A DNA stretch of 63,187 nt from Methanosphaera stadtmanae (GTDB lineage Archaea > Methanobacteriota > Methanobacteria > Methanobacteriales > Methanobacteriaceae). This document shows, in pieces, positions 4,925-13,489 of this stretch. The stretch spans positions 3,618-66,804 of the forward strand of contig SUTP01000002.1 of assembly GCA_015062815.1 (NCBI GenBank), in the 5' to 3' direction. The stretch's first letter is position 1; the number at the start of each line of letters is the position of its first letter. The translations under genes and the position numbers were made by a program. The notes under the pieces were generated by a model, which worked only from the letters and a program-made list of their open reading frames with translations, had not been told where the DNA came from and ran no database searches.

Positions 4925-6139
4925 ATGGTAAAATTAAATAGTCCTTACATATTTATTGGATTATTAGTAATAACAGTTCTGATTTCCGGCGTTATGGCTA
5001 ATTCTTATGCTACAAATAATAACCAAACTACATTAATGTTCCATAATGGTTCAACCGTACAATCAGGCGATACTTTATTAGATCCAAATAATATGCAAAA
5101 AGTTCCTTTAGCTGCTGATATATCCAATATAATAAGACCTATAACAACTGGACAAATACTAACAACATATTTATCATTAATAACAGGTACTGCACCTAAA
5201 GACATAGTGAAAGATAGCAAATATATTAAGGGAAATGGACAAATATCTGATAATCTGAATGGACCTGGAACTGTAATAGTCGATAAAGATAACAAAGTAT
5301 CAATAAAACCTGCTAATCAAATGGTTTGGGGATACAAAATCCCATATGTAATTGGATTTAAAGATGGTGATTCCATTATATTAAAAGTAAATAACAAAAC
5401 CATCAAAACTCTTAGTTATTCAGAAATCAACAATGACACAGTCCCTACAGATTTTGTTACTGCATCTGCACTTAAATCTTGGTTAAATGATACTGCTCAT
5501 GATGGAGACAATATTACCTTAGATTACGGTTTAGGATACTTTAATGATAATCGAAGTGCTATATACGGAAAAGAAAATATCACAAAATACTTTGGTGAAA
5601 ATACATACAATTACATGCGAAATTTCACTTCAAGTGCACCAGTACTTGTATACGAACATAATGCAACAGAAACAGAAATAAGTAATGCTGTGAGTACTGT
5701 TGAAAGTTTAGCTGGTTATCCAACAGAGATTCGTGCAGAAAATGCAAGAGAATTTGCACGAGGATGGAATGGAACTATTATACCACCACATACTTCAGCT
5801 CATGGAAAAGACAACGTGTCATTCACATCCATTGCTGAATCAGAAGCCGCGTCAGGCAGTGCTACTCATGGTGTATGTCCAGCAGGAAGATCTTTAAGAG
5901 ATGCTGTGATGAAAATTGGAAGTCCATTACCCGTAGGTATGTCTGCAGGAGATGAAGCTATACTTTATGAATTTTTACCTACAATTGATGTATCTGTAAC
6001 TAATACAAGAGATTATCCAATAAAAATTATAATGTGGAGTGAAGGTGAAGGAGGAGCAACACAAATCTTTACAAAAGTATACGAACTTAAAGATAATGCA
6101 ACTTACCCCGATACATCTACAAATAAAACAAGTGAATAA
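4925..6139 (+). CDS. Exported conserved protein with VanW-like C-terminal segment
   Basis: N-terminal signal/TM (FIGLLVITVLISGVMA); C-terminal HGVCPAGRSLRDAVMK..LPVGMSAGDEAILYEFLPTIDVSVTNTRDYPIKI resembles VanW. Confidence 0.6.
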   Translation: MVKLNSPYIFIGLLVITVLISGVMANSYATNNNQTTLMFHNGSTVQSGDTLLDPNNMQKVPLAADISNIIRPITTGQILTTYLSLITGTAPKDIVKDSKYIKGNGQISDNLNGPGTVIVDKDNKVSIKPANQMVWGYKIPYVIGFKDGDSIILKVNNKTIKTLSYSEINNDTVPTDFVTASALKSWLNDTAHDGDNITLDYGLGYFNDNRSAIYGKENITKYFGENTYNYMRNFTSSAPVLVYEHNATETEISNAVSTVESLAGYPTEIRAENAREFARGWNGTIIPPHTSAHGKDNVSFTSIAESEAASGSATHGVCPAGRSLRDAVMKIGSPLPVGMSAGDEAILYEFLPTIDVSVTNTRDYPIKIIMWSEGEGGATQIFTKVYELKDNATYPDTSTNKTSE

Positions 6140-6149
6140 TTATTCACTT
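6130..6149. terminator. Perfect 20-bp palindrome followed by T-run; candidate terminator
   Basis: AAGTGAATAATTATTCACTT then AACTTTTTTT; overlaps the stop codon of 4925-6139. Confidence 0.6.
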
Positions 6150-6219
6150 AACTTTTTTTCGAACAATTTATTATAAATTAATTACTTATTCTAATATACT
6201 CAAAATTTGATGTGAAAAA

Positions 6220-6885
6220 ATGGATTGTGTAATTACAGCTGCAGGTAAAAATTCTAGAATGATAAACGATTTTATAAAAATGAACCAAGAACCAATACAT
6301 AAATTAAAATTAGAAATTAACAATAAACCTATTCTTGTTCATACAATAGAAAAAGTTCTAAATGCTAATATTGAACAAGTAATAATTACATTAGGTTATT
6401 TTAAGGAAGAAATATATGATGTTCTTGAAGAATATGATTTATTAGACAACGTGACAATTAAAACAAATCCCCAGTTAAATGTAGACCTATCTAAAACTAT
6501 TGAAAATAGTATTAAAGATAATACAGATAATTATTATTTATTTATGGCTGCTGATCAACCCACAATTACAAGTCAAACTATAAACAAACTCATAAATATT
6601 ATTGACAATTGTGAAAATCCTGAAAATACTTTGAGTGTTCTTAGAAGACGAAAAACCGGATGGTTAGATTCTGCAGAAGGTTTAGGTATGCCTTTTTGTT
6701 GTTACGGTAAATTATTATACAAATATGTGATAAATGAAAATTCTAATCTTAACCCCATATTACGTAAAATGATTAAAAATAATGTTAAGTTTTATGGTGT
6801 TAAAGAAGCAAATAACTTTGAATTAATGAATATTAACCAGTATCATGATTATTTAACTATAAAAAAAGAATTTGAAAGAAAATAA
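6220..6885 (+). CDS. MobA-like NTP transferase domain protein
   Basis: MDCVITAAGKNSRM...PILVHTIEKVLNA...FMAADQPTITSQTI. Confidence 0.75.
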   Translation: MDCVITAAGKNSRMINDFIKMNQEPIHKLKLEINNKPILVHTIEKVLNANIEQVIITLGYFKEEIYDVLEEYDLLDNVTIKTNPQLNVDLSKTIENSIKDNTDNYYLFMAADQPTITSQTINKLINIIDNCENPENTLSVLRRRKTGWLDSAEGLGMPFCCYGKLLYKYVINENSNLNPILRKMIKNNVKFYGVKEANNFELMNINQYHDYLTIKKEFERK

Positions 6886-11092: not shown

Positions 11093-11431
11093 ATGAAAAA
11101 AATTGCAGTTAGTAGTAAAGAAAATGGAAAAGTTGAACATTTTGGTAAATGTGAATATTTTTTAATTTATAATTATGATGAAAATACTCATACAATTGAA
11201 TATGAAAATGTAATTGTTTCATCCAAAGATTATAACGGTACCGAAGAATGGGAAAAATCTGCAAATGCAATCGAAGGTTGTGATATAGTTATCTGTGAAA
11301 AAATAGGTATGGTTGCTAAAGCAAATGTAGAGTTAATGGGTATGAAAGTTATTGAGGATGAAGGTACCGTTGAAAATGTACTTGATAATTTTATAAAAAT
11401 TGAAACAAATAAGAACAATATAATATTATAA
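11093..11431 (+). CDS. NifX/dinitrogenase iron-molybdenum cofactor family protein
   Basis: MKKIAVSSKENGKVEHFGKCEYFLIY...CDIVICEKIGMVAKANVELMGMKVIEDEGTVENVLDNF. Confidence 0.8.
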   Translation: MKKIAVSSKENGKVEHFGKCEYFLIYNYDENTHTIEYENVIVSSKDYNGTEEWEKSANAIEGCDIVICEKIGMVAKANVELMGMKVIEDEGTVENVLDNFIKIETNKNNIIL

Positions 11432-11650: not shown

Positions 11651-12514
11651 ATGTGTGGGGAAGATAATAAAATGAAGAATAAGCGAATATACAAGTTATT
11701 TGAAACCTTGTATGGAGATTCTTTTAATAGAATATTATTAAAAGGAAATATTGAAGAAGGATATGAACGTCATCCTATAAGAAATATCAAAGAACTATTT
11801 GACAATTATGAAAAAACAGATAATACTAATGAATCTTTCATAAGTGTATATGACTTTGATGAAGATGCAAATACCACCAAATGGTTCAAAAGTGACCTTG
11901 CATTATATGAAAAACATAGTATAAAAAATTGTATTATTATAAGATTCCACGAAAATACAGATATACTTAATGAAGAAACTGAAAAAGCAACAGAAATTCA
12001 AAAATTCATGTTTATTCGTAGAAGCATTAATTTAGGATTTAATAAAAAAATTATAGAAGAATGTAAACAAACAGCATCATTTATAAAAGAAACATATGAT
12101 TTAAACTCTTTAGCCATATTTAATGGATATAATGAATGTCATCTTTACATATTCTTTAATCCAATAGACCTTAAAAATGCTCAAGAAACATTATATTATT
12201 TTTATAGATTTATAGAAAATCAATTAAATTTAGAAAAAATGAATTATAAAAATATTGAACCATTTTCACAAGTAACTAAATTAATAGGAACTCAAAATAA
12301 AAACACAAGATTATATTCAAAACCTTTTAATTTCGAATGGGATTACTCAACAATTATAAAAAATTGTGAAAATAAGATAATAAATGAAATAAACTTCGAA
12401 AAAAATGATTCTGAAGCTTTCAAACAAGGATTAATTTCAGTAGATGAAGAAATATCAAATAATCCAAAAATAAGTAATGAACGATTGAGTGAGCTATTTA
12501 ACCCAACACATTAA
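11651..12514 (+). CDS. Conserved protein; candidate degenerate archaeo-eukaryotic primase-like domain
   Basis: 287 aa; FMFIRRSINLGFNKKIIEECKQTASFIKETYDLNSLAIFNGYNECHLYIFF...VTKLIGTQNKNTRLYSKPFNF matches AEP motif spacing by eye. Confidence 0.45.
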   Translation: MCGEDNKMKNKRIYKLFETLYGDSFNRILLKGNIEEGYERHPIRNIKELFDNYEKTDNTNESFISVYDFDEDANTTKWFKSDLALYEKHSIKNCIIIRFHENTDILNEETEKATEIQKFMFIRRSINLGFNKKIIEECKQTASFIKETYDLNSLAIFNGYNECHLYIFFNPIDLKNAQETLYYFYRFIENQLNLEKMNYKNIEPFSQVTKLIGTQNKNTRLYSKPFNFEWDYSTIIKNCENKIINEINFEKNDSEAFKQGLISVDEEISNNPKISNERLSELFNPTH

Positions 12515-12691
12515 TACATTTTTTTATTATCCTCACTTATAACTCTTTTTTTTCAAAATAAATGAATTAATTAAGAAAAAATAGATTATTTAATAACATT
12601 TATATTATACAAAAAATATAATGATATATAGCTTTATAGACTAGGTTAATGGTAAATTTAATCTATGTATAATAGATTGTTATAAAGAAAT

Positions 12692-12705
12692 ATGGCCTTT
12701 GCCAT
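12692..12705 (+). other. Short hairpin ATGGC-CTTT-GCCAT before a T-run; part of structured intergenic region
   Basis: Perfect 5-bp inverted repeat; preceded by AATCTAT-GTATA-ATAGATT (12660-12678) nested within CTTTATA/TATAAAG (12632-12638/12681-12687). Confidence 0.5.
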
Positions 12706-12916
12706 CGTATCTAATTTTTTTATAAAAAACCCTGTTTTGTTTACTATATAACCTGACGGATTTTTCAAACAATAAATTGAAAACTTTAATTAAAATATTA
12801 CAAGGAAAAAAAAGACAGTACTAGTATACTATCTTTATTTAACAAATTATCACAATTTTAAAAAAAAATAATTTGCTGCAAAATTTTTAAAAAAAAATAT
12901 ATAGGAGATTGATAAA

Positions 12917-13489
12917 ATGGCAAAAGCAAGAAGACGAGTACGTGATACATGGAAAGAAAAAGTTTGGTATGAAATTTTAGCACCATTAGACTTTGAAGAA
13001 GCAAGTTTAGGAACAAGTCCTGCAAGAGAACCTGATATGTTAGTAGGTCGTAAAATTGAAACATCTATGCGTGAATTAACAGGTGATTTCAGTAGACAAT
13101 ACATTAAATTATTCTTTGAAGTAGATCATGTTAGTGGAGAAGTAGCTCACACAGTATTCAAAGGTCACAAAGTAACAACAGATTACGTACGTAGTATGAT
13201 CAGAAGGGGAACAAGTCGTATTGACACAATAACTGATGCAACTACTAAAGATGGTAAAAAACTTAATGTTCACATGTTAGCTATAACTTTAAAACGAGCT
13301 AAAGCTTCACAACAAAGATTCATCAGAGAAACTATGCATGACAAAATCATAGAGCTTGCAGCTGAAAAAAATTTAGATGAATTAGTTAAAGATATTATAT
13401 CTGGTAAATTTGCTTCAACTATATACCATGAAGCTAAAAAAATCTACCCACTCAAAAAAGTAGAAACTATAAAAACAAGAGTTATCTAA
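12917..13489 (+). CDS. 30S ribosomal protein S3Ae
   Basis: MAKARRRVRDTWKEKVWYEILAPLDFEEASLGTSPAREPDMLVGRKIETSMRELTGDFSRQYIKLFFEV. Confidence 0.96.
   Translation: MAKARRRVRDTWKEKVWYEILAPLDFEEASLGTSPAREPDMLVGRKIETSMRELTGDFSRQYIKLFFEVDHVSGEVAHTVFKGHKVTTDYVRSMIRRGTSRIDTITDATTKDGKKLNVHMLAITLKRAKASQQRFIRETMHDKIIELAAEKNLDELVKDIISGKFASTIYHEAKKIYPLKKVETIKTRVI

Follow-up and report, generated by a model that had tools for sequence, protein, structure and literature searches.

The window, meaning the whole 63,187-nt stretch of Methanosphaera stadtmanae DNA that was analysed, carries an ORF of 287 codons between a NifX/FeMo-Co-family gene and the gene for ribosomal protein S3Ae. A first-pass annotation made from the sequence alone had read this ORF as a catalytically degenerate paralogue of the archaeo-eukaryotic primases (AEPs). 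The features of the locus are as follows.

11093..11431, plus strand: left neighbour, a NifX/FeMo-Co-family protein (Pfam PF02579, E 4.5e-18; synteny)
11651..12514, plus strand: AEP-like protein, 287 aa, very probably an AEP fold without catalysis (ORF, 20/20 orthologues, AF2 model, Foldseek and hhalign)
11672, plus strand: alternative start of the AEP-like ORF at Met8, the point at which most orthologues begin
12637..12765, plus strand: candidate conserved structured RNA, model R1 (covariation and covariance model)
12917..13489, plus strand: right neighbour, ribosomal protein S3Ae (eS1) (named so in the first-pass annotation; orthologues and synteny)

Because of the begin point of most orthologues, Met8 is as plausible a start as position 11651. 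The AEP-like gene has a single orthologue per genome in all 20 Methanosphaera genomes examined, including the 13 of high quality, and the gene order NifX/FeMo-Co-like, AEP-like, S3Ae and others up to glmM and glmU is kept wherever both flanks could be read. In several related genera (for example at loci L103-L106) the NifX-like gene is followed directly by S3Ae with no gene between, so either the Methanosphaera lineage acquired the AEP-like gene or the others lost it, acquisition being the simpler explanation. Among the genomes searched, the gene was seen in Methanosphaera only. Two ORFs at the equivalent place in other genomes were considered and set aside: a 251-aa ORF in a sister genus (L099) was ruled out as an orthologue by profile comparison (hhalign 1.3%), and a 155-aa ORF (L107) appeared flavodoxin-like by eye.

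Single-protein searches of Pfam and NCBIfam did not recognise the AEP-like protein, and a PDB sequence search gave a chance match only. No relative turned up in viral contigs, whether these were scanned with the protein or with its alignment, tblastn against phages and plasmids yielded nothing past weak primase matches, and the PHROG family 'DNA primase' was matched weakly by the single sequence (E 0.011). The AlphaFold (AF2) model was of high quality (pLDDT 91.2, pTM 0.89) and contains an RRM-like AEP core with the strand and helix order of PriS and the Prim-Pols. Comparison of a predicted structure with the PDB had been named in the first-pass annotation as a check, and in our Foldseek search the top match was the CRISPR-associated Prim-Pol (CAPP; E 1.7e-6, prob 1.00), followed among the leading matches by LigD-Pol domains, S-2L PrimPol, Pri1 and human PrimPol. 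Essentially every PDB match down to rank 43 was an AEP, the first clearly unrelated chain standing at rank 44, and a viral structure library likewise returned primases. The TM-scores were moderate (about 0.45 by query and about 0.6 by the smaller target), as is expected of remote AEP members, and sequence identity to AEPs is only about 15-20%.

The clear relatives elsewhere in the order are proteins of 380-420 aa that combine an AEP domain with a C-terminal DnaG-type zinc ribbon (AEP-Zn primases) and carry the textbook motifs DRLFFDFD, SGxKGxH, D-x2-V and RxxRxPYS; they are the sole relatives found in the order outside Methanosphaera. The Methanosphaera family aligned with them in hhalign at 98.2% (E 6e-14, 249 columns; 5.5e-15 in a second comparison), and a profile built from them retrieved the AEP-like ORF with an E of 3.1e-12 as the only match in the source genome. 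The model of one such relative (L053, pLDDT 77.8) also retrieved AEPs with Foldseek and has its elements in the same order as the AEP-like protein, namely a helix, the motif I strand, three helices, the motif II hairpin and a helix. The C-terminal CHC2/DnaG zinc ribbon is absent from all Methanosphaera orthologues.

The host primase subunit PriS is a distinct gene in every Methanosphaera genome searched, and the AEP-like family scored only 0.5% against the PriS profile in hhalign. The profile comparison suggested at the outset thus upheld kinship with AEPs with intact motifs and failed for PriS, and the word paralogue is not demonstrably right with respect to the host PriS. Since PriS is separate, its profile is unmatched and the AEP-Zn primases are matched, a mobile-element donor is favoured, and we regard such an origin of the gene as probable. 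The alternative of a diverged PriS duplicate, with no capture from a mobile element, draws on PriS being an AEP itself and present in every genome searched; it is nevertheless improbable given the gap between the two profile scores.

The positions of the former motifs, located by profile alignment, secondary structure and residue frequencies, are listed below.

11930..11950, plus strand: former motif I strand CIIIRFH, residues 94-100 (DSSP strand, alignment with FFDFD, residue frequencies)
12008..12037, plus strand: MFIRRSINLG at residues 120-129, lying in and just beyond helix 115-127; no other segment of the family is as well conserved
12107..12154, plus strand: former motif II hairpin, residues 153-168, with LAIFNGYNECHLYIFF at residues 154-169 (DSSP, frequencies, profile alignment)
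12242..12322, plus strand: former motif III and flange, residues 198-224 (residue frequencies, profile alignment)

In the hhalign alignment, R98 and H100 pair with the two Asp residues of the FFDFD of the relatives, in agreement with the DSSP strand. All 20 orthologues have Arg at position 98, and 18 of them carry Arg or Lys at position 100 (R, K, H or I overall, with His in the source species). The first-pass annotation had put the place of motif I at KFMFIRRSINLG (IRRS, residues 122-125), which falls in helix 115-127 and not in the true strand. Its statement that the acidic pair is replaced holds for all orthologues, none of the 20 having such a pair when motif I was inspected across them as had been advised, but the replacing residues are R98-x-100 rather than IRRS. 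A motif I at YDFDEDAN, proposed by a MAFFT alignment, was dropped, as the profile and secondary-structure alignment place the motif elsewhere.

For motif II, the Ser is replaced by Asn158, Gly159 is retained and the second Gly has become Glu162 (20/20), so that Ser-Gly-x-x-Gly-x-His now reads Asn-Gly-x-x-Glu-x-(variable) in the Methanosphaera family. The original assignment of motif II to this hairpin agrees with its alignment to FSGSKGFHxxxFF of the intact-motif relatives; the His said to be kept there is not genus-wide, because only the source species has His at position 164 (1/20), the remaining 19 having L, Y, S or C. The motif III Asp corresponds to Asn198, an unconserved position (N, I, T, K, L, V, F or Y across orthologues) that is never acidic. 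In the flange, Arg is replaced by Gln207 (20/20), while Leu221 and Tyr222 are invariant, and TKLIGTQNKNTRLYSKPF, correctly taken as the stretch after motif III, aligns in the profile comparison with RxxRxPYSxxxxTxLYxxPI of the same relatives.

Active AEPs are defined by hhhDhD/E in motif I, sxH in motif II and hD/E in motif III, with motifs II and III variable in some AEP families (PMC5862659), and the 20 orthologues lack this set. We infer that the AEP-like protein would be incapable of priming or polymerising, because two of the three metal ligands are basic in nearly every species. The possibility of an enzyme with altered chemistry was weighed against this reading, as E109 and E162 are conserved in 20/20 orthologues and E/D203 in 19/20, and these could be relocated acids in the AEP cleft; motif III is known to vary, for example to Gln in RepE/RepS (PMC5862659). 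However, neither motif I ligand is acidic in any orthologue, the residues there being basic or neutral, and E/D203 aligns with a downstream Asp of the relatives rather than with the catalytic motif III Asp. To our knowledge, no AEP works with R-x-R/K in motif I. With conserved acids near the site, unusual chemistry is strictly speaking still conceivable, at a very low probability. The model with its Foldseek matches, the profile match and the absence of motif I acids from all orthologues together bear out the degenerate AEP of the first-pass annotation, and we consider it very likely that the AEP-like protein is a non-catalytic AEP.

The gene is under purifying selection, with dN/dS of 0.07-0.27 in the informative species pairs (one pair with almost no changes was counted as uninformative). 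Between pairs of orthologues the median dN is some 6.5 times as high as for S3Ae, and this rapid divergence fits weak constraint and an arms race equally well. The distances between orthologues run parallel to the S3Ae distances (Spearman 0.83, Mantel p 0.0005), and therefore the gene was inherited vertically. Its fast divergence and the loss of the zinc ribbon and catalytic residues might suggest a relic, that is, the degenerating remnant of an inserted mobile element without present function, but the ORF is intact in 20/20 genomes, dN/dS is well under 1 and 17 columns of the family alignment are invariant, charged ones included. Because of the intact ORF and the purifying selection we do not take the gene for a relic, an explanation to which we give very little credence, and its conservation as a host gene encoding a non-catalytic AEP is highly likely.

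The conserved positions are also related to those of the primases. Among 29 columns invariant in the related primases, six are invariant in Methanosphaera as well, compared with 12 among all 225 columns (p 0.0015); the test is small and dependent on a single alignment. In three of the six doubly invariant columns the residue itself has been replaced (from the related primases to Methanosphaera: D82 to R98, G160 to E162 and R206 to Q207). Judged from the alignment, shared invariant columns with swapped residues are the pattern that would be expected of a cleft kept for a non-catalytic use. That an unrelated RRM-like or ferredoxin-like protein merely came to resemble AEPs is scarcely credible, for although identity is low and RRM-like sheets are common to many proteins, the structural matches are specifically AEPs and the profile match runs collinearly over motifs I-III and the flange.

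Among known systems, the closest are the AEP-Zn primases of Methanobacteriaceae (L023/L052, L053, L054 and L055), which are uncharacterised and probably belong to mobile elements. The AEP-like protein shares with them the AEP core, collinear motif regions, the helix and strand order in the model and a significant profile match, whereas they keep DFD, SGxKGxH, the motif III Asp and the zinc ribbon, none of which is conserved in the acidic AEP-like protein. The Marinitoga CAPP (PDB 7p9j / 7nqe), the best PDB fold match, is an active enzyme whose catalytic residues are missing here. PriS (DNA_primase_S, PF01896) is likewise an archaeal host gene of the AEP superfamily, but the AEP-like protein has no Pfam or PriS profile match and exists beside a separate PriS. 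PriX of the Sulfolobales is also a non-catalytic, primase-related archaeal protein, an analogy of function only, as it is related to the PriL/PriCT domain and not to the AEP core (PMC5862659).

We propose that Methanosphaera acquired an AEP domain in its common ancestor, the most likely source being an AEP and zinc-ribbon primase of a mobile element, that the captured primase then shed the zinc ribbon together with the acidic residue at each of the three catalytic positions, and that vertical inheritance has since maintained it as a host gene in single copy. The old active-site cleft may persist as a re-wired pocket formed by Arg98, Arg/Lys100, Asn158, Gly159, Glu162 and Gln207, which could bind a nucleotide, or some other phosphate ligand, with no metal involved. 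The protein might then work without enzymatic activity, as a regulator or as a partner of other proteins, for example by contacting replication proteins, and one conceivable role would be to damp the priming of invading elements through contact with their helicase-primase machinery. A ligand-binding regulator of some kind is a tentative suggestion, and the specific anti-element role is unlikely. No PADLOC anti-phage defence model matched the protein, and no genomic partner hinting at its function was seen.

The nucleic-acid-binding role that had been proposed is unproven, since the AEP-like family has an acidic median pI of 5.0 with a net charge of -12, whereas the related AEP-Zn primases are basic (pI 9.2, charge +12; 7.8-9.5 for the AEP domain alone) and PriS is mostly basic. 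As computed from the sequences, this acidity would speak against binding of template DNA or RNA.

A whole genus of gut methanogens thus appears to retain a dead AEP in which basic residues stand in for the metal-binding Asp pair and parts of the cleft are still conserved. Non-catalytic members of enzyme families often become regulators or scaffolds. Searches of the open-access literature for inactive or domesticated AEPs turned up no account of a catalytically dead AEP that serves as a core host gene, and the AEP-like protein offers a clean case for asking what role a primase fold takes on after the ability to prime is lost. M. stadtmanae is in culture.

The gene had been described as sitting alone beside a structured intergenic region, which is accurate: the fold signal of this region (z = -2.75) is due to a conserved RNA block of about 130 nt. 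In the window it begins 122 nt past the AEP-like gene and ends 151 nt ahead of S3Ae. The block is conserved genus-wide, is preceded by a conserved TATA-like stretch and contains the invariant stretches GTATCTAA and GACGGA. Its consensus fold has 41 pairs, with compensatory changes in 17. In alignment A6, 96% of cells pair, compared with 90% after column shuffling and 39-52% for slid alignments, and in the set of 19 distinct sequences both sides have changed at 23 of 40 pairs, compared with 9 in shuffles, for an alignment fitted to the model. The covariance model hit once per genome in 19 of the 20 Methanosphaera genomes, two of the hits being weak. It found no copy in other Methanobacteriales under strict filters (151 genomes searched in all), its matches around mobile-element primases and among sister genera were at chance level only, and a search of Rfam gave no match. 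The block is a candidate new structured RNA with strong covariation.

In 13 genomes measured, the distance from the RNA to S3Ae is steady (149-218 nt) whereas that to the AEP-like gene varies from 94 to 1657 nt, and the RNA may therefore be a leader of the S3Ae (ribosomal-protein) gene or a free RNA. In view of this spacing we are cautious about pairing it with the AEP-like protein; a single ribonucleoprotein or RNA-controlled regulator made of both, possibly guarding replication against mobile elements, would be a long shot. Two genomes (L040 and L039) carry about 1.5 kb of additional DNA between the AEP-like gene and the RNA block.

Several further observations were made on the primases of the order. 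At L054:468-5003, an AEP-Zn primase is found together with an integrase-like ORF and with a 622-aa ORF that has a P-loop-like stretch, beside a uvrA-like gene, apparently a small integrated element. A related primase ORF at L056:6922-8091 is interrupted by one in-frame TAA, either as a pseudogene or through an assembly error, and an extra zinc-ribbon ORF lies at 6122-6391. ORFs of about 1060 aa in three genomes of the same family (L140, L141 and L143) match the AEP-Zn primase profile and are perhaps primase-helicase fusions. Four genomes (G007, G018, G005 and G012) have two or three PF01896 (PriS) matches rather than one, the additional copies probably belonging to plasmids or elements.
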